Source: Stenotrophomonas sp. ISL-67
Lineage (GTDB): Bacteria; Pseudomonadota; Gammaproteobacteria; Xanthomonadales; Xanthomonadaceae
Length of the DNA: 64,000 nt
Assembly: GCF_018612915.1 (NCBI RefSeq)
Contig: NZ_JAGGRL010000002.1
Location: 124,001 to 188,000 of the forward strand
Direction: 5' to 3'
Shown here: one piece after another, positions 23,677 through 57,737 of the stretch
Layout of the letters: every line of letters starts with the position of its first letter
Numbering within the stretch: the stretch's first letter is position 1
The notes under the pieces: generated by a model
What the model was told of the DNA's origin: nothing
Seen by the model: the letters and a program-made list of their open reading frames with translations, nothing else
Databases searched by the model: none
Program-made: the position numbers and the translations under genes

Positions 23677-23825
23677 GAAAATCCCGATAGCAACATTCTG
23701 TGAAGACGGACACAATTCGTCGTGCCAGCCGCACTACCCCCGATGGTCCTACTCCCCAAGAGGCCGTCCCCAGGGGGGCTCATAATGTGGGGCTCTGAGC
23801 AAGCCCGATCGCTGGCGCTCTACAC

Positions 23826-23893
23826 CGCACGCCCGGTTCCGAAAGGACCGGGCGTGCGCGTGTGGGTTGCAGGCACTGCCGCAGCAGTGCCTG
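23826..23893. terminator. Two strong hairpins downstream of adk
   Basis: Hairpin one, 23826-23858, pairs CGCACGCCCGG(T)TCC with GGACCGGGCGTGCG around a GAAA loop (14 bp, one bulge). Hairpin two, 23870-23893, pairs CAGGCACTGC with GCAGTGCCTG around CGCA and lies just beyond the adk stop on the minus strand. Neither has a long T-run, so termination is likely but not certain. Confidence 0.6.
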
Positions 23894-43302: not shown

Positions 43303-43410
43303 TCACGCCCGCACGGGGTGTGCGGAACGGGGACGAAGCGGCGGCGCACGGCAGTTGCGCGGCGCGGCTCGGGTCTGCATGGACCGGTTGGCGCGCTGCA
43401 TCTGCTGTTG

Positions 43411-43500
43411 CGAAGCTTCCCTACGCCGGTATCAACCGGATCAGGTTCGATGGGACTGTCTCAACCGTGGCCCCAGGGCCGCGGTACCCCCGCTTCGGGG
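43411..43500 (-). promoter_or_regulatory. TPP riboswitch (THI element) for thiC
   Basis: Read on the minus strand, the element begins CGAAGCGGGGGTACC, contains GGTTGAGACAGTCCC and ATCGAACCTGATCCGG, and closes with GATACCGGCGTAGGGAAGC. These are the conserved TPP aptamer blocks: the UGAGA of the pyrimidine arm, and CCUGAUC and GCGUAGGGA of the diphosphate arm and P1. Stem P1 pairs CGAAGC with GCTTCG at the two ends. No T-run terminator follows before the thiC start, so control is probably at translation or by Rho. About 125 nt separate the aptamer from the ATG. Confidence 0.95.
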
Positions 43501-43623
43501 CGGATTAGACCACACTGGCGTGGCGTTGGACATGCTGCATCGCGAACGTGAACAGGGCGGTCATGCGGGCTTGGCTAGACTCCTGCCCAGCGACACTCCT
43601 GTTGCGTACGGAGACACGCCGAC

Positions 43624-47230: not shown

Positions 47231-47498
47231 GGAATGGATTCCTGGAAGGGTGGCAAGCGCTTGATGGTGGCGGCTGGAGCCCAGTGCGCACATCCGACAA
47301 TGGTCATGCACAGGTCCATCCACGACACTCCGATCCGCGCAGAAACCCCGCTTCAAAACTTGAACTGGCGTTCACCAGAACGCTTTCACGCGCAACCATC
47401 GTTACGTGGCGGGGCTGTGCGCTGGATTCAGCCGAAACCGTTGGAAAATGTCGAAACACGGTTGACAGCGGCAAAACCGCTGTGGTTTTCTCGATCAC

Positions 47499-47627
47499 AT
47501 GTTGCAGCGCCACACGCCCATTCGCGATTCCTTCCCGCCCACCGGTTCCGGTGCGGCCGCGGTCGCCTCGCTTCTTGTCCTCGTACTTATTACCCAACCA
47601 ACAGGTGCGGGACGGACCGGCGTGTAA
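47499..47627 (+). CDS. ilv-leu operon leader peptide
   Basis: This 42-codon open frame runs from ATG 47499 to TAA 47627, upstream of ilvC. Residues 25-31 read LLVLVLI (codons 47571-47591), followed by [12 protein letters not shown] run of Leu, Val and Ile just before a terminator is the hallmark of attenuation control of branched-chain amino-acid operons. The codons used are CTT, CTT, GTC, CTC, GTA, CTT and ATT, which are unusual in a genome that otherwise prefers CTG, GTG and ATC; rare codons would sharpen stalling. It is too short for routine annotation. Confidence 0.85.
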
Positions 47628-47682
47628 GTAGAACTGCCAGGTATCCATCAAAACCCGCACCCACCCTGGTGCGGGTTTTTTC
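47604..47682 (+). terminator. Attenuator of the ilv-leu operon: terminator with competing antiterminator segment
   Basis: The terminator is AAAACCCGCACC-CACCCT-GGTGCGGGTTTT, 47650-47679, a 12-bp stem ending in six T's. The octamer GGTGCGGG at 47604-47611, inside the leader frame, equals the 3' arm and so can pair with the 5' arm CCCGCACC (47654-47661). A ribosome stalled on the Leu/Val/Ile codons would leave 47604-47611 free to form this antiterminator. One that reaches the stop at 47625 would cover it and let the terminator form. This is read directly from the sequence; the mechanism is inference. Confidence 0.88.
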
Positions 47683-47722: not shown

Positions 47723-48697
47723 ATGAGCACCAACGACCTGCCCCAGATCAAGATCGCTGTTGTCGGCTACGGCAGCCAGGGCCGCGCCCACGCCCTCAAC
47801 CTGCGTGAATCCGGCTTCGACGTGGTCATCGGCCTGCGTCCGGGTGGCCCGACCGAGGTCAAGGCACAGGCCGACGGCTTCACCGTCAAGGCGCCCGCCG
47901 AGGCCGTGAAGGACGCCGACCTGGTTGCCGTGCTGACCCCGGACATGGTGCAGAAGAAGCTCTACGAAGACGTGCTGGCGCCGAACATGAAACAGGGCGC
48001 GGTGCTGCTGTTCGCCCACGGGTTGAACGTGCACTTCAACATGATCGCCCCGCGCGATGACCTGGACGTGGTGCTGGTCGCGCCGAAGGGCCCGGGCGCG
48101 CTGGTCCGCCGCGAATATGAAATCGGCCGTGGCGTGCCGTGCATCTGGGCGGTCTACCAGGACCGCAGCGGCAAGGCCGCCGAGTACGCGCTGGCCTACG
48201 CCGCCGGCCTGGGCGGGGCGCGCGCCAACCTGATCCAGACCACGTTCAAGGAAGAAACCGAGACCGACCTGTTCGGTGAGCAGGCGGTGCTGTGCGGCGG
48301 CGCCTCGGCACTGGTCCAGGCCGGTTTCGAAACGCTGGTGGAAGCCGGCTACCAGCCGGAAATCGCCTATTACGAAGTGCTGCACGAACTGAAGCTGATC
48401 GTGGACCTGTTCTACGAAGGCGGCATCACCCGCATGCTGGAGTTCATCTCCGAAACCGCGCAGTACGGCGATTACGTGAGCGGCCCGCGGGTGATCGACG
48501 CCGGCACCAAGGAGCGCATGAAGGCGGTGCTGGCCGACATCCAGGACGGCACGTTCACCAAGAACTGGGTGGCCGAATACGAAGCGGGCCTGCCGAACTA
48601 CAACAGGTTCAAGCAGGCCGACCTGGAACACCCGATCGAGAAGGTAGGCAAGGAACTGCGCGCCAAGATGGTCTGGTTGCAAGGTCAAGCCGCGTAA
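47723..48697 (+). CDS. ilvC: Ketol-acid reductoisomerase
   Basis: IlvC carries out the second common step of valine and isoleucine synthesis, isomerising and reducing acetohydroxy acids with NADPH and Mg2+. The 324-residue class I enzyme has the N-terminal Rossmann motif [37 protein letters not shown] and [14 protein letters not shown]. The knotted C-terminal domain with metal-binding acids follows ([36 protein letters not shown]). AAAGGACC precedes the ATG at 47723. It is the first structural gene after the attenuator. Confidence 0.97.
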
Positions 48698-48735
48698 CCG
48701 CGCGGCTCCCCCACCGCTTTGTCAAAGGTCACCGC

Positions 48736-50472
48736 ATGAACACCTCCGCACACAGCACCGCGCCCCGCAACGGCGCACGCTGGTTGACGCAGGCCCTGGA
48801 AGCCGAGGGCGTCGATACGCTGTTCGGCTATCCGGGCGGCACCATCATGCCCTTCTACGACGCCCTGGTGGATTCGGGGCTCAAGCACATCCTGGTGCGC
48901 CACGAACAGGGCGCCGCATTGGCCGCCAACGGCTATGCCCGCGCCAGCGGACGGGTGGGTGTTTGCGTAGCCACCTCCGGCCCGGGCGCCTCCAACCTGG
49001 TCACCGGCATCGCCGATGCGATGCTGGATTCGGTGCCGATGGTCTGCATCACCGGCCAGGTCGCCACGCCGCTGCTGGGCACCGACGCGTTCCAGGAACT
49101 GGACGTGTTCGGGCTGACCCTGCCGATCGTCAAGCACAGCTGGCTGGTGCGCTCGGTCGACGATCTGCCGCGCGTGGTCCGCGAAGCCTTCCGGATCGCG
49201 CGCGAAGGCCGCCCCGGCCCGGTGCTGATCGACCTGCCCAAGGATGTGCAGGTCGCCGACGCCAACCACCTGCCGGTGCATGTGCCGGAGACGGTCAACC
49301 CGCCGGTTGCCCCGGCTGACGCGGCCCTGGCCGACGCCATCGCCGCGATCCAGGCCGCTGAAAAGCCGGTGGTCTACGCCGGTGGCGGCGTGGCCCTGGG
49401 CGATGCGGTGGAAGACTTCCGCGCCTTCGTCGACGCCACCGCCATTCCCACCGTACTGACCCTGCGTGGCCTGGGTGGGTTGCCGGCACAGCACCCGCAC
49501 TACCTGGGCATGCTGGGCATGCACGGCACCCGCGCGGCGAACATGGCCGTGCAGGAAAGCGACCTGCTGGTGGTGGTCGGCGCACGTTTCGACGACCGCG
49601 CCACCGGCAAGTTGAACGAATTCGCGCCGTTCGCCCGCGTCATCCACATCGACGCCGATGCCTATGAGATCTCCAAGCTGCGTACCGCCGATGTGGCGGT
49701 GCCGGGCAATGTCGGCGCCGCACTGCGTGCGCTGACCGCGGCCGTGGCCGGCGCACCCGCGTCGCAGGAAGCATGGCGCAGGCGCTGTGCCGGGCACCGC
49801 GAGCGTTTTGCCGCCCGCTACGACGCACCGGGCGCGCATATCTACGCCCCGGCGCTGTTGAAACGCCTGAGCGAAGTGGCTCCGGCCGACGCGATCATTG
49901 CCTGCGATGTCGGCCAGCACCAGATGTGGGTAGCCCAACACTGCCGCTTCAACCACCCGCGCAACCACCTGACCAGCGGTGCACTGGGCACCATGGGCTT
50001 CGGCCTGCCGGCGGCGATGGGCGCGCAGTTCGCCTGCCCCGACCGCACCGTGGTACTGGTCTCCGGCGACGGCAGCTTCATGATGAACGTGCAGGAGCTG
50101 GCCACCATCGCCCGCTGCCGCCTGCCGGTGAAGATCGTGCTGCTGGACAACAGCTCGCTGGGCATGGTCCGACAGTGGCAGGAACTGTTCTTCGCCGAGC
50201 GTTACAGCGAGATCGACCTGTCCGACAACCCGGACTTCGCTGCACTGGCCAAGGTGTTCGGCATTCCGGCTACCCGCATCGACGCCCGCGACGACGTTGA
50301 AGGCGGCCTGGCCGCGCTGCTGGCCGAACCCGGCCCGGCGCTGCTGCACGTGGCCATCGACGCGCGTGCCAACGTGTGGCCGCTGGTGCCGCCCAACAAT
50401 GCCAACAGCACCATGCTGGAAAGCAACCCTGCCCATCAGCCCCAGGAGTTCCCCCATGCAATACCGGCTTGA
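48736..50472 (+). CDS. ilvG: Acetolactate synthase, large (catalytic) subunit
   Basis: The 578-residue thiamine-diphosphate enzyme condenses two pyruvates, or pyruvate with 2-oxobutyrate. The N-terminal domain has DTLFGYPGGTIMPFYDAL and the catalytic Glu in VRHEQGAALAANGYARASG. The central domain has GTDAFQELDVFGLTLPIVKHS, and the C-terminal ThDP motif is GDGSFMMNVQELATIARCRLP...LDNSSLGMVRQWQ. It overlaps the small-subunit gene by 17 nt. The name ilvG versus ilvB depends on convention; in this operon it pairs with an ilvM-like ACT subunit. Confidence 0.95.
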   Translation: MNTSAHSTAPRNGARWLTQALEAEGVDTLFGYPGGTIMPFYDALVDSGLKHILVRHEQGAALAANGYARASGRVGVCVATSGPGASNLVTGIADAMLDSVPMVCITGQVATPLLGTDAFQELDVFGLTLPIVKHSWLVRSVDDLPRVVREAFRIAREGRPGPVLIDLPKDVQVADANHLPVHVPETVNPPVAPADAALADAIAAIQAAEKPVVYAGGGVALGDAVEDFRAFVDATAIPTVLTLRGLGGLPAQHPHYLGMLGMHGTRAANMAVQESDLLVVVGARFDDRATGKLNEFAPFARVIHIDADAYEISKLRTADVAVPGNVGAALRALTAAVAGAPASQEAWRRRCAGHRERFAARYDAPGAHIYAPALLKRLSEVAPADAIIACDVGQHQMWVAQHCRFNHPRNHLTSGALGTMGFGLPAAMGAQFACPDRTVVLVSGDGSFMMNVQELATIARCRLPVKIVLLDNSSLGMVRQWQELFFAERYSEIDLSDNPDFAALAKVFGIPATRIDARDDVEGGLAALLAEPGPALLHVAIDARANVWPLVPPNNANSTMLESNPAHQPQEFPHAIPA

Positions 50473-50716
50473 CCTGGTGCTGGTTCCGGCCGAAGGCGCG
50501 CTGCTGCGCGTGATCGGCATGGCCGAACGCCGTGGCTTTGCGCCGCGCGCGATCGTGGGTGCGCCGAATGCGGCCGACGACGGTCGCTGGCACCTGCAGC
50601 TGGTGGTGGACAGCACCCGTCCGCCGGAGACGCTGTGCCGCCAGATCGAAAAGATCTACGACTGTGTTTCGGTGCGCATCAGTGCGCTGGAACCGGGTAG
50701 TGGAGTCACTGTATGA
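50456..50716 (+). CDS. ilvM: Acetolactate synthase small subunit (ACT domain)
   Basis: The 86-residue protein is a single ACT domain (YRLDLVLVPAEGALLRVIGMAERRGFAPRAIVG, then WHLQLVVDSTRPPETLCRQIEKIYDCVSV). It is the size of IlvM-type regulatory subunits rather than the longer IlvH/IlvN types. It should bind and activate the large subunit and may carry feedback control. The start at 50456 follows CCAGGAG and lies inside the end of the large-subunit gene, so translation is coupled. A 219-nt gap to ilvA follows, unusual within this otherwise tight operon. Confidence 0.9.
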   Translation: MQYRLDLVLVPAEGALLRVIGMAERRGFAPRAIVGAPNAADDGRWHLQLVVDSTRPPETLCRQIEKIYDCVSVRISALEPGSGVTV

Positions 50717-50935
50717 ACGCCCGCGCCGTGGTTTCGGTGCCGGTACGGAGGGGTCTTCTTCAAGGCCGGTCGCCGACATGCAGCCGCATGGGTCATTTCC
50801 GCGCAGCCACGCGTGAATCACGTTCCGTCCTTGCGGCGGGTTCCGCGCGCATGGCGATGCGTTCATCGCACAGGCGCCCGCTGGTCATGGGGCGCGGCGT
50901 GGCTCTACGGCCAACGGTCGTTCACCGGAGCGGTC

Positions 50936-52033
50936 ATGCCGGCTAGCCGTGCCCCGCAGGAATCGGAGGTAGGCGATGTAAGTGTCGCCGACGTGCTGGC
51001 CGCGCAGGCGCGGCTGCGCCGGTTCCTGCCGCCCACGCCACTGCATTATGCGGAGCGGTTCGGCACCTGGCTGAAGCTGGAGAACCTGCAGCGCACCGGG
51101 TCGTACAAGGTGCGCGGTGCATTGAACGCGCTGCTGGCCGGTCGCGAGCGCGGCGATGACCGTCCGGTGATCTGCGCCTCGGCCGGCAACCACGCCCAGG
51201 GCGTGGCGTGGTCGGCCTACCGGCTGGATATCCCGGCCATCACCGTGATGCCGCACGGTGCCCCGGCGACCAAGATCGCCGGCGTCGCACATTGGGGCGC
51301 TACCGTGCGCCAGCATGGCACCAGTTATGACGAGGCGTACGCCTTCGCACGCGCCCTGGCTGACCAGCATGGCTACCGCTTCCTGTCGGCATTCGACGAT
51401 CCGGACGTGATCGCCGGCCAGGGCACGCTGGGCATCGAGCTGGCCGCGCACGCACCAGACGTGGTGATCGTGCCGATCGGCGGCGGCGGGCTCGCCTCCG
51501 GCGTGGCGCTGGCACTCAAGTCGCAGGGCGTGCGCATCGTCGGCGCGCAGGTCGAGGGCGTGGATTCCATGGCCCGCGCGATCCGCGGCGATGTGCGCGA
51601 AATCGCGCCGGTGGCCACCCTGGCCGACGGCGTGAAAGTAAAGATTCCCGGCACGCTCACCCGCCGCCTGTGCAGCGCGCTGCTGGATGACGTGGTGATC
51701 GTGCGCGAAGCCGAGCTGCGTGAAACCCTGGTCCGGCTGGCGCTGGAGGAACACATCATCGCCGAAGGCGCCGGCGCGCTGGCGCTGGCCGCCGGCCGCC
51801 GCGTGGCCGGCAGGCGCAAGTGCGCGGTGGTATCTGGCGGCAACATCGACGCGATGGTGCTGGCGCAGCTGCTCTCCGACATCCGCCCGCGCCCGCCGCG
51901 CAAACCGCGCCGCCGCGCCAGCGAGCGAACACGGCCACCGCTACCGACCGTGCTCGCGCCACCCCCGAATTCCATCGCCCTTCCTTCCCCTGCCTTGCCA
52001 TCCGACCTTGCCGTCGAGGAGACCTCCTGGTGA
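50936..52033 (+). CDS. ilvA: Threonine dehydratase without regulatory ACT-like domain
   Basis: This PLP enzyme deaminates threonine to 2-oxobutyrate for isoleucine. The 365-residue protein starts at ATG 50936 behind ACCGGAGCGG. The PLP lysine is in [14 protein letters not shown], and other motifs are [15 protein letters not shown] and the phosphate loop [18 protein letters not shown]. The catalytic part ends near [21 protein letters not shown]. It is followed by a basic and proline-rich tail ([21 protein letters not shown]...) in place of the C-terminal isoleucine-sensing domain of E. coli IlvA. The overlap with leuA is 4 nt if leuA starts at GTG 52030. Confidence 0.92.
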
Positions 52034-52035
52034 CC

Positions 52036-53583
<1,548 letters not shown>

Positions 53584-53593
53584 GGAACACGCC

Positions 53594-54376
53594 ATGAGCG
53601 CCTTCGACAGCTTGAATACCGCTGACCCGTCCCAGACCTGGAACGCACACGACTACGCCATCGATGCCGGCTTCGTGCCGGTGCTCGGCGGTGCGGTGGC
53701 ACGCCTGCTCGACCCGCAGCGCGGCGAGCGGATCCTCGACCTGGGCTGCGGCGATGGCGTGCTCAGCTTCGACCTGGCACTCAGCGGTGCGCACGTGACC
53801 GGCGTGGACAGCTCGCCCGAGCTGATCGGCGGCGCGCGCGCACGCGGCATCGACGCTCAGCTGATGGATGCCCAGGCGATGACCTTCGAGCGCCGCTTCG
53901 ATGCGGTGTTCAGCAACGCCGCGCTGCACTGGATGCGCGAACCGGACAAGGTGGTCGACGGCGTGCGCCGTGCGCTGCGCCCTGGCGGCCGTTTCGTGGC
54001 CGAGATGGGTGGCCAGGGCAACGTCGCCACGATCACCAGCGCGCTGCAGGCCGCCCTGTGCAGCAACGGCCATGCGGTGCCGGCGTTCCCGTGGTACTTC
54101 CCGAGTGAAGACGAGTACGCCGACCGCCTGCGCGCGCACGGCTTCCAGGTACGCCACATCGAATGCCTGGCGCGCCCGACCGTACTGCCCACCGGCATGC
54201 AGGGCTGGCTGCGCACCTTCGCGTCGCCGTTCCTGGCCGGGCTGGATGCCAGCCAGCGCCAGCGCGTGCTCGACGACACCGTGGCCCTGCTGTCGCCGAC
54301 CCAGCGCGATGCGCACGGCCAGTGGACCGCCGATTACGTGCGCCTGCGCTTCGATGCGCGGCTGCGCACTTCCTGA
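53594..54376 (+). CDS. SAM-dependent methyltransferase within the leucine operon, trans-aconitate methyltransferase-like
   Basis: The 260-residue class I methyltransferase has motif I RILDLGCGDGVLSFDLA (about residues 46-62), an acidic loop VTGVDSSPELIGGAR, FDAVFSNAALHWMREPDKVVDGVRRALRPGGRFVAEMGG and a C-terminal helical cap. The SSPxxI and FSNAALHW segments resemble the Tam/Tmt1 trans-aconitate methyltransferases. It lies 10 nt after leuA and 48 nt before leuC in the same strand, so it is co-transcribed with leucine genes. Yeast Tmt1 also methylates 3-isopropylmalate, the LeuC substrate, which makes a role in handling that intermediate or its dehydration by-product plausible. This is inference. 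Confidence 0.85.
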   Translation: MSAFDSLNTADPSQTWNAHDYAIDAGFVPVLGGAVARLLDPQRGERILDLGCGDGVLSFDLALSGAHVTGVDSSPELIGGARARGIDAQLMDAQAMTFERRFDAVFSNAALHWMREPDKVVDGVRRALRPGGRFVAEMGGQGNVATITSALQAALCSNGHAVPAFPWYFPSEDEYADRLRAHGFQVRHIECLARPTVLPTGMQGWLRTFASPFLAGLDASQRQRVLDDTVALLSPTQRDAHGQWTADYVRLRFDARLRTS

Positions 54377-54424
54377 CAGAACCGAACCCACCTATCGTCA
54401 CATGAACCACCGCAAGGCCATTCC

Positions 54425-55846
54425 ATGAACCCAGCTCCCCGCACCCTGTACGACAAACTGTGGGACGCCCACGTGGTCGTGCCCGAATCGGACAGCGCGC
54501 CCGCCGTGCTGTACATCGACCTGCACCTGATCCACGAAGTGACCTCGCCGCAGGCCTTCACCGAACTGCGCGAGCGCGGCCTGTCGCCGCGCCGCCCGGA
54601 CCGGACCAAGGCCACGATGGATCATTCCACCCCGACCCTGCCGGCCGGTGCCGACGGCAGGCTGCCGTATGCCAGCGCCGCCTCCGAGGCGCAGGTGGCG
54701 ATGCTGGCGCGCAACTGCACCGGGTACGGCATCGAGCTGTTCGACCTGCAGTCGGCCAACCGCGGCATCGTGCATGTGATCGCGCCGGAACAGGGCTTCA
54801 CCCAGCCCGGCATGACCATTGTGTGCGGCGACAGCCACACCTCCACCCACGGCGCTTTTGGTGCGCTGGCGTTCGGCATCGGCACCAGCGAGATCGGCCA
54901 CGTGCTGGCCACCCAGTGCCTGCTGCAGCGCAAGGCGAAGACCATGGCGATCACCGTCGACGGCGCGTTGGCGCCGGGCGTGGGCGCCAAGGACGTGGTG
55001 CTGCACATCATCGGCGTGATCGGCGTGAATGGCGGTACCGGCCATGTGCTGGAGTTCCGTGGCAGCGCGATCACCGCGATGGACATGGAACAGCGCATGA
55101 CCCTGTGCAACATGTCGATTGAAGCCGGCGCGCGCGCCGGCATGGTCGCGCCGGACCAGGTCACCTTCGACTGGGTGGCCAACACCCCGCGCGGCCCCAA
55201 AGGCGCGGAGTTCGACGCGGCCGTGGCGCAGTGGTCGCAGCTGCGCAGCGATGCCGGCGCCCGCTTCGACGTGGAGGTCCACATCGACGCCGCCGACATC
55301 CGCCCGACCCTGACCTGGGGTACCCACCCGGGCACGGCCATCGCCGTGGACGCGCCGATCCCGGCGGCCAACGATGCCGCCGACCAGAAGGGCCTGGACT
55401 ACATGCACTTCCACGCCGGGCAGACCCTGGTCGGCACGCCGGTGGACGTGGTGTTCGTCGGCTCGTGCACCAACGGCCGCCTCAGCGACATGCGGGAAGT
55501 GGCGCACGTGCTGCAGGGCCGGCGCGTCGCCACCGGCGTGCGCATGCTGGTCGTGCCGGGGTCGGAAATCGTCAAGCGCCAGGCCGAGGCCGAAGGCATC
55601 GACGCCATCGTGCGCGCCGCCGGGGCCGAATGGCGCGAGCCGGGCTGCTCGATGTGCATCGCCATGAACGGCGACCTGGTCGCGCCCGGGCAGCTGGCGG
55701 TGAGCACCAGCAACCGCAACTTCGAAGGTCGCCAGGGCCCGGGTTCGCGCACCCTGCTCGCTTCGCCGATCACCGCGGCGTGGGCGGCAGTGAATGGCCG
55801 GGTAGCCGACCCGCGTGAACTGTATGCCAGCCAGGAGGTGGCCTGA
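54425..55846 (+). CDS. leuC: 3-isopropylmalate dehydratase, large subunit
   Basis: LeuC holds the 4Fe-4S cluster of the isomerase that converts 2- to 3-isopropylmalate. The 473-residue length is usual. It begins [13 protein letters not shown], with [48 protein letters not shown] and the cluster cysteines in [15 protein letters not shown] and [11 protein letters not shown]. The 3' end carries [27 protein letters not shown]. The stop overlaps the leuD start by one base (TGATG). Confidence 0.97.
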
Positions 55847-56424
55847 TGAGCGGCTTCCGTACCCTGGCCTCGACCAGCGTGGTGCTGCGCGAGACCAACA
55901 TCGACACCGACCAGATCATTCCGGCGCGGTTCCTGTCCACCACCGAACGCGCCGGGCTGGGCAAGCACGCCTTCAACGACTGGCGCTGGCAGGCCGACGG
56001 CACCCCGAACCCGGGCTTCGCGTTCAACCAGCCACACAACGCCGGGCGCGGCATCCTGCTGGCCGGCCGCAACTTCGGCTGCGGCTCGTCACGCGAGCAT
56101 GCACCGTGGGCGCTGGCCGACCTGGGCCTGCGCGCGATCGTCAGCAGTGAAATCGCCGACATCTTCCGTGGCAATTCGCTGAAGAACGGCTTGTTGCCGA
56201 TCGTGCTGGACGAAGCCGACGTGCAGACCCTGATGCAGCGGCCTGACGACGAACTGACCATCGACATCGCCGCGCGCGAACTGCGCACGCCCGATGGCCG
56301 CGTTTATGCTTTCCCGCTGGACGGGTTCTCGCAGACCTGCCTGCTCGAAGGCGTGGACCAGCTGGGATACCTGTTGGGCCGCGCCCCCGATATCGAACGT
56401 TACGAGAGTGAACATGCACGCTGA
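55846..56424 (+). CDS. leuD: 3-isopropylmalate dehydratase, small subunit
   Basis: The 192-residue partner of LeuC supplies the swivel domain. Motifs are [19 protein letters not shown] near the N-terminus, then [49 protein letters not shown]. Its start shares one base with the leuC stop, and its end overlaps leuB by 11 nt, so all three leu genes are translationally coupled. Confidence 0.97.
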
Positions 56425-57475
56425 GATTGTCGTATTGCCCGGTGATGGCATCGGTCCCGAAGTTGCCGCTGCCGCTGTTGCGGTGCTTGGCGCGGTTGCC
56501 GGGCGTTTTGGCCACACCTTCCGTTTCAGCGAGCACGATATCGGCGGCATCGCCATCGACCGCCACGGCGAGCCGCTGCCCGCCGCCACGCTGGATGCCT
56601 GCCGGCAGGCCAAGGCGATCCTGCTGGGCGCAGTGGGCGGGCCCAAGTGGTCCAACCCCAACGCCAAGGTGCGTCCCGAGCAGGGCCTGCTGGCGATCCG
56701 CAAGGCCTTGGGGCTGTATGCCAATCTGCGCCCGGTGCGCACCCATCCGGCCGCCCTGGGCGCCTCGCCGATCAAGGCCGAGCTGCTTGAAGGCGTGGAC
56801 TTCGTCGTGGTGCGCGAGCTCACCGGCGGCATCTACTTCGGTGAGAAGACCCGCACCGCCGACGCCGCCAGCGACCTGTGCAGCTACAGCGTGGCTGAAA
56901 TCGAGCGGGTGATGCGCAGCGCGTTCCGGCTGGCGCAGCAGCGCCGCGGCAAGGTCACCTCGGTGGACAAGGCCAACGTGCTGGAGACCTCGCGCCTGTG
57001 GCGCGACGTGGCCGCGCGGATCGGCCGCGAGGAATTCCCGGCGATCGCGCTGGAGCACCAGCTGGTGGATTCAATGGCCATGCACCTGCTGGCCAAGCCA
57101 CGCGAGTACGACGTGATCGTGACCGAGAACATGTTCGGCGACATCCTCACCGACGAGGCGTCGATGCTGGCCGGTTCGCTGGGCCTGCTGCCGTCTGCGT
57201 CGCTGGGTGAACCGGGCGCGGTGGGCATCTACGAGCCGATCCACGGCTCGGCACCGGATATCGCCGGCAAGGGCATCGCCAACCCGTACGCCACGATCTT
57301 CAGCGCGGCGATGCTGCTGCGGCATTCGTTGGGGTTGGAAGCCGAAGCGGCAGCCGTGGAAGCCGCCGTACATGCCGCGTTGGATGATGGCGTGTTCACC
57401 GCCGATCTGGCGGCAAAGGGCCAGGCGGTCAGCACCACGCAGGCCACCGACGCGGTGCTGGCGCGGTTGGCGTAA
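56414..57475 (+). CDS. leuB: 3-isopropylmalate dehydrogenase
   Basis: LeuB oxidatively decarboxylates 3-isopropylmalate with NAD+. The 353-residue enzyme begins [18 protein letters not shown] and has [10 protein letters not shown], the substrate-binding [39 protein letters not shown], the metal-binding [33 protein letters not shown] and [19 protein letters not shown]. It is the last gene of the operon. A long inverted-repeat element follows the stop. Confidence 0.97.
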
Positions 57476-57523
57476 GTCGGGCGCCGCACGCGTGTCGTGT
57501 AGCGTGTAACGGGACACCGGCCC

Positions 57524-57668
57524 GGTAGGGTCGGTTCCCAAACGACCGCACGTAACCGCGCAACGCCCGGTAACGCATGACCCCAAACGAAGAGCGCGTC
57601 CCCGAAAGGGTCCATGCGTCAAAGCACCGACCACCTGCGTCGGCGGTCGTTTGGGAACCGACCCTACC
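57524..57668. repeat. 145-nt long inverted-repeat element, GTAG-ended (family member B)
   Basis: The left arm (GGTAGGGTCGGTTCCCAAAC, GACCGC) and the right arm ending at 57668 pair perfectly over 26 nt and then partially through CGCATG...CCATGCG. The spacer contains CCCCAAACGAAGAGCGCG. The core CCATGCGTCAAAGC-CCGACCACC is shared with element A at 45293-45457. Here too the element lies between convergent genes (leuB and the RND pump gene). The rest of 57476-57737 holds no gene. Confidence 0.85.
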
Positions 57669-57737
57669 CCCGCGTCTGCAGCGCCGGGGATCCAGGCGAT
57701 TCAACGGCGCCGCAGTTGCGGCGCCGTCGGCGTAGTT

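Follow-up and report, generated by a model that had tools for sequence, protein, structure and literature searches.

The segment studied here stands at the head of a branched-chain amino acid operon in Stenotrophomonas sp. ISL-67, within a stretch of 64,000 nucleotides that we refer to as the window. Family identification indicates that the genes downstream of the leader make the amino acids that it would sense. The operon comprises the following features.

47723..48697, plus strand: ilvC, ketol-acid reductoisomerase, first gene of the operon
48736..50472, plus strand: ilvG, acetolactate synthase large subunit (start placed by eye)
50456..50716, plus strand: ilvM-like small subunit (start placed by eye; E 1.6e-8, below the curated cut-off)
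50936..52033, plus strand: ilvA, threonine dehydratase (start placed by eye)
52036..53583, plus strand: leuA, 2-isopropylmalate synthase (start placed by eye)
53594..54376, plus strand: SAM-dependent methyltransferase-like gene between leuA and leuC
54425..57475, plus strand: leuC, leuD and leuB

The methyltransferase-like gene scored over cut-off with none of the 25 NCBIfam models listed, and a pattern scan from 48600 to 57720 gave no terminator-like site on the plus strand. The IlvC of the window is 99% identical to that of an S. maltophilia MAG (L031). The original prediction was that one attenuator controls the whole branched-chain pathway. Most of the pathway does lie behind the leader, but the best ilvD match is on another contig (C10), as is the best ilvE-like match (C15, below the family cut-off), so that most, not all, of the pathway would be under the attenuator. 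No ilvD-linked second leader was found in this genome (L330), the assembly of which is estimated to be 76% complete. Other Rfam matches in the window are the sRNA sX11 (23722–23863, plus strand) and a TPP riboswitch (43400–43501, minus strand).

Leader peptide, control codons and candidate promoter

The region ahead of ilvC contains a short reading frame preceded by promoter-like elements.

47462..47467, plus strand: −35 element TTGACA
47483..47491, plus strand: candidate extended −10, TGG-TTTTCT, assigned by position and spacing (18-nt spacer; predicted start near 47498)
47499..47627, plus strand: leader peptide ORF, 42 codons from ATG to TAA, by direct reading
47571..47591, plus strand: control codons Leu-Leu-Val-Leu-Val-Leu-Ile, from sequence, codon usage and homologous ORFs

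The control codons read CTT CTT GTC CTC GTA CTT ATT. They had been noted as rare for this genome, which is borne out by usage both in 11 window genes (5,024 codons) and in 74 distinct leaders. In the window genes CTT and CTC make up 1.4% and 4.8% of Leu codons (CTG, 85%), GTA and GTC 5.5% and 19.5% of Val codons (GTG, 71%), and ATT 9.5% of Ile codons (ATC, 90%). The 501 run codons of the 74 leaders comprise 135 CTC, 121 CTT, 2 CTG and 1 TTG for Leu, 73 GTA, 55 GTC, 24 GTG and 1 GTT for Val, and 87 ATT and 2 ATC for Ile; CTG is thus used for 2 of 259 Leu codons and ATC for 2 of 89 Ile codons. This apparent avoidance of common codons in the run exceeds chance. Under ordinary wobble rules CTT and CTC are read by one minor Leu tRNA, so the rare Leu codons plausibly sharpen Leu sensing; ATT and ATC are served by one tRNA, and the rarity of the Ile codon therefore gives no like argument. 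The choice of run codons is also constrained by their pairing in the hairpin P1, described below.

In the 74 distinct homologous ORFs, which span 36–47 codons, the Leu/Val/Ile run remains in frame with the ATG. The leader peptides share a C-terminal end, LVLVLI(T/S)xPTGAGR, and their middle varies freely among relatives. The N-terminus (window 47499–47519) recurs as MLQRH, MTQRN or MSQRN in the window and its relatives although it lies outside the control codons: MTQR, MSQR, MPQR or MTHR begins 56 of 84 order-wide leaders, and the ilvC-first group has mostly MLQR/MLHR types. Such conservation would be explained if the leader peptide or the attenuated RNA also acted in trans, for which the peTrpL peptide and rnTrpL RNA of Sinorhizobium offer a precedent (PMC7298713). 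We consider trans action unlikely, given the freely varying middle of the peptide and the fact that N-terminal conservation could instead serve leaderless initiation. A long-range pairing of ACACGCC at the leader start with GGCGTGT in the stop region, suggested by a whole-leader fold, was not supported, scoring 16.00 against a mean of 15.83 and a maximum of 16.28 for swapped partners.

The TTGACA element is present in all 79 distinct ilvC-type leaders, and its first base lies 36–37 nt before the leader ATG in 75 of them and 35–39 nt before it in all 79. Order-wide, the distance was 35–38 nt in 84 of 86 leaders; since the script used there picked the ATG nearest 36.5, the count in the ilvC-type leaders is the cleaner test. 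A spacer of 17–18 nt and a TTTTCT-like −10 put the predicted start at the AUG or no more than about two bases from it. Because the distance from TTGACA to the ATG is fixed, the leader mRNA is probably leaderless, with transcription starting at or near the AUG. The same attenuator might instead have an ordinary 5′ untranslated region, with a start further upstream and a fixed distance that reflects something else. The −10-like TTTTCT/TTATCT matches the TATAAT consensus poorly, and a promoter scan, which demands A at −10 position 2, called none, both of which favor that arrangement. However, inspection by eye revealed no Shine-Dalgarno-like stretch before the leader ATG, and the near-constant promoter distance contrasts with the spacer between terminator and ilvC, which varies from 44 to 251 nt among 63 distinct spacers. 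An ordinary untranslated region therefore seems improbable to us, and we favor the leaderless start.

Predicted mutually exclusive hairpins in the leader RNA

Four RNA features were assigned from the second half of the ORF to the end of the leader.

47577..47613, plus strand: sequestering hairpin P1 (47577–47580 with 47610–47613; 47582–47588 with 47603–47609)
47604..47611, plus strand: octamer GGTGCGGG, 5′ strand of the antiterminator, assigned by its pairing with the terminator 5′ arm
47604..47661, plus strand: antiterminator, octamer with 47654–47661 and inner helix 47614–47646, from folding and covariation
47650..47681, plus strand: intrinsic terminator hairpin and U tract, −19.8 kcal/mol

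Direct reading confirmed the original placement of the ORF, run, octamer, hairpin and T run. The terminator, which had been described as a 12-bp stem with six T's, is formed by 47650–47661 and 47668–47679 (12 pairs, 6-nt loop) with the T run at 47676–47681. As its outer four A:T pairs take up the first four of the six T's, it is better regarded as an 8-bp core containing seven G-C pairs followed by a 6-U tract. It is separated from ilvC by 43 bases, and it is unlikely to serve an upstream gene because the long ORF upstream of the leader is on the opposite strand and runs leftward. A generic terminator scan of this single sequence returned 2 sites versus 1.5 in shuffles, and the case for an attenuator is weaker from the single sequence alone than from comparison.

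The octamer had been proposed as the antiterminator. Its pairing with the terminator 5′ arm is possible throughout the leaders compared, with at least 6 of 8 pairs in 63/63 minimum-energy folds of segments running from octamer to arm, which exclude the competing strands. Because the pattern used to gather the 63 leaders required the run and the x-Ala-Gly residues spanning the octamer, the conservation of these within the set is partly by choice. In 77 of 86 order-wide leaders, a scan that made no demand for x-Ala-Gly found an exact arm complement of at least 6 bases in the interval from run to stop, a count that has no chance baseline. A partial second copy of the octamer (47550–47556), upstream of the control codons, sits in a hairpin, and this stretch varies among relatives.

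The antiterminator proved to extend past the octamer into an inner helix, which closes it two bases further on and has a coding 5′ side and a noncoding 3′ side. The GNN triplet near the octamer (47614–47616 in the window) has an exact complement in the 16 bases that precede the arm in 49 of 63 sequences; when G-U pairs are allowed, 61 of 63 have a complement there. Among 46 unique combinations, exact complements number 34 versus a mean of 16.4 and a maximum of 27 over 2,000 partner swaps, and 44 versus 33.6 and 40, respectively, with G-U pairs; the swaps take no account of shared descent, and several different pair types occur, including CGAA/TTCG, CGAG/CTCG, CGAT/ATCG and CGGA/TCCG. In three leaders (L034, L146 and L162) the exact triplet and the four-base form are both absent. 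The inner helix is seldom more stable than shuffles (p ≤ 0.05 in 7 of 63; p = 0.54 in the window), so the claim for this putative helix rests on its covariation.

All parts of the switch were originally thought to be visible, which overlooked P1, the hairpin that sequesters the octamer. In the window, without a ribosome, P1 has a probability of 0.97 and the antiterminator one of 0.00, the latter rising to 0.98 when the octamer is freed. In 57 of 75 leaders the octamer pairs with the control-codon region at P ≥ 0.5; over all 75, the mean antiterminator probability is 0.15 without a ribosome and 0.95 with the octamer freed. Without a ribosome it is below 0.2 in 58 of the 75 and at least 0.5 in 11. 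When the upstream RNA was codon-shuffled, the mean was 0.44 as against 0.15 for native sequences; 67 leaders fell under their own shuffled mean and 8 did not. The register of P1 differs between lineages. In these folding models the hairpin between control codons and octamer is the predicted default off state. In free RNA from 47604, the terminator state (−33.0 kcal/mol) is slightly better than the forced antiterminator (−30.7 kcal/mol), from which it follows that the on state must win kinetically.

With a standard ribosome footprint, placing the Ile codon (47589–47591) in the A site puts the front edge at about 47602, so that the octamer just escapes it. Once at the stop codon (47625), the ribosome would cover RNA from about 47608 on, masking part of the octamer. 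The geometry fits control by all seven codons.

Taken together, 47499–47682 is very probably a ribosome-mediated transcription attenuator with three mutually exclusive hairpins, at which RNA polymerase probably starts at or near the leader AUG. The octamer pairing in all 63 leaders and the conserved run in relatives support the attenuator reading with which the work began. The ORF, control codons, alternative pairings, conservation and covariation are read from sequence and comparison; from them we infer the start site, translation, termination and the response to each amino acid. In the proposed mechanism, RNA polymerase would start at or a few bases from the leader AUG, and a ribosome would load at the transcript 5′ end without a Shine-Dalgarno sequence. 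Under a shortage of charged Leu-, Val- or Ile-tRNA, the ribosome would stall in the control codons and open P1, leaving the octamer just past its front edge. The freed octamer would pair with 47654–47661 while bases from 47614 on close the inner helix and, with the terminator 5′ arm occupied, the operon would be transcribed. When amino acids are plentiful, the ribosome would reach the stop codon and cover the octamer; when no ribosome is present, P1 would hold it. In either case the terminator would form and transcription would end near 47681.

A simple terminator that is partial and constitutive, reducing expression of the operon and preceded by an ORF that is there by chance, would also give a short RNA and basal readthrough, yet it would not call for the rare-codon Leu/Val/Ile run, reading frame, P1 and antiterminator that recur in relatives, and we regard it as very unlikely.

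Distribution across the order and a second element

Lack of the Leu/Val/Ile run and the octamer in related genomes had been named as grounds for rejecting the attenuator, and the comparison did not refute it. Both are found ahead of ilvC in Stenotrophomonas, Xanthomonas, Pseudoxanthomonas and Thermomonas records, and elsewhere in the order additional genera and families have a leader of like kind in front of ilv/leu operons. IlvC was detected at E ≤ 1e-60 in 139 of 198 family genomes; the other 59, some of them nearly complete, gave no match at this threshold, and it is possible that they have lost branched-chain synthesis or have a divergent IlvC. Upstream of ilvC, the leader motif was present in 89 of 124 loci scanned, several of which come from one genome, and the 89 reduce to 63 distinct core sequences, that of the window included, which come from the four genera named above and others. 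Among the 35 loci lacking the motif, four operons were read (G236, G161, G188 and G337), of which three begin with ilvD and one with leuA. A nucleotide query matched 124 of 150 genomes, which is no count of leaders because 178 bases of the query are ilvC sequence, and it is there that most matches outside the genus fall.

A covariance model built from the 63 cores matched 172 of 198 family genomes and 138 of 200 order genomes at E ≤ 0.01, tallies that overcount, since a scan found the Leu/Val/Ile ORF absent from 11 of 11 fetched lower-scoring secondary matches (L318–L328). In 86 of 100 fetched matches that ranked high in the family and order lists (L218–L317), an ORF contains an uninterrupted Leu/Val/Ile run of at least 5 codons and is followed by a terminator. 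Four of the 14 misses were inspected by eye: the runs of L222, L235 and L237 are interrupted or fail another criterion, and L226 has none. L329 duplicates the primary match of L235. The chance pattern matches L132 and L136 (plus strand) were dropped ahead of the counts that followed the 124-locus scan.

The first recognised gene behind the covariance match in 20 longer stretches is ilvD in 11, leuA in 7 and ilvG in 1, with none in the 1-kb stretch L234; ilvD was probed by its C-terminal part only. In most of these stretches the other ilv and leu genes lie downstream in the same orientation. One genome has leu and ilv genes at two places (L226 and L237), and it is the leuA-side match, L226, that is without the run. 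Gene order therefore differs across the order (ilvD-, leuA- or ilvG-first in L218–L237 versus ilvC-first) with the leader still first, which makes the leader the more constant element while gene order moves.

Thirty-one of the 63 spacers between terminator and ilvC are at least 150 nt long. A second terminator-like hairpin is present in 30 of these, an ATG ORF of at least 15 codons in 30 and both in 29 (for example, at about 1286–1500 in L032); the exceptions are L035, without a hairpin by scan, and L140, without an ATG ORF. None of the 32 short spacers, including that of the window, has the second hairpin. The second small ORF often contains Thr and Cys and, in those compared by eye, its stop codon falls at the hairpin's foot, within its loop or at its end, so that translation of the ORF should hinder termination. 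Judging by this arrangement, the second element would be a switch of opposite sign to the first, in which translation of the ORF would prevent termination and its failure would permit it. A tentative and rather doubtful scenario is that an ancestral leaderless attenuator was kept in front of the branched-chain operon for much of the order's history while the gene behind it was swapped (ilvC, ilvD, leuA, ilvG), and that in a subset of Stenotrophomonas- and Xanthomonas-like lineages the opposite-sign switch joined it in series to form an AND gate. If so, the gate would combine branched-chain starvation with working translation or another signal.

Relation to known attenuators and significance

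The ilvGMEDA, leuABCD, his and thr operons of E. coli and Salmonella are controlled by leader-peptide attenuators. The window leader resembles these in its ORF, which carries control codons, in its alternative antiterminator and terminator structures and in its position before the first structural gene, and resembles that of ilvGMEDA in involving three amino acids. Unlike them, it has a compact three-hairpin form, precedes both ilv and leu genes, matches no Rfam family over cut-off and probably lacks a Shine-Dalgarno sequence. Vitreschak et al. (2004) reportedly predicted branched-chain attenuators across proteobacteria, and their set may already include Xanthomonas or Xylella.

The leader of Corynebacterium glutamicum ilvBNC has a start site one nucleotide from the start codon, a terminator, an antiterminator and an anti-antiterminator, and Ile/Val/Leu codons including CUU and GUA. 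It differs from the window leader in belonging to another phylum, encoding 15 residues and preceding ilvBNC only (PMC11857589). In a proteobacterium, Sinorhizobium meliloti trpL provides a leaderless leader ORF on an attenuated RNA, but it senses tryptophan and its RNA and peptide act also in trans (PMC7298713).

No Rfam family scored over its gathering threshold at the leader, and T-box matches were absent at both gathering and E ≤ 1. A permissive search gave, on the plus strand, Leu_leader RF00512 at 21.1 bits (cut-off 50) and Thr_leader at 18.5 (cut-off 55), the only other match being Hrs10 on the minus strand at 20.3 (cut-off 108). T-boxes in Firmicutes and leader peptides in Proteobacteria replace each other (PMC2965389); control of this operon by a T-box or metabolite riboswitch with an incidental ORF is nevertheless very unlikely, given the Rfam result and the conservation of the coding frame and control codons. 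The attenuator is of a known kind; in the open-access literature searched, no description was found of a leader of the window type, nor of its probable leaderless start and wide history in the order.

The leader is well supported as a regulatory element of a major biosynthetic operon, in an order whose members include environmental, plant-associated and opportunistic bacteria, and it has no over-threshold match in Rfam 15. If leaderless, it would offer a natural system for studying how ribosome and RNA polymerase keep pace with each other on a transcript that is translated from its first base. Its place at the head of the operon, kept through gene shuffling, would be a clean case of a regulator that outlasts gene order.
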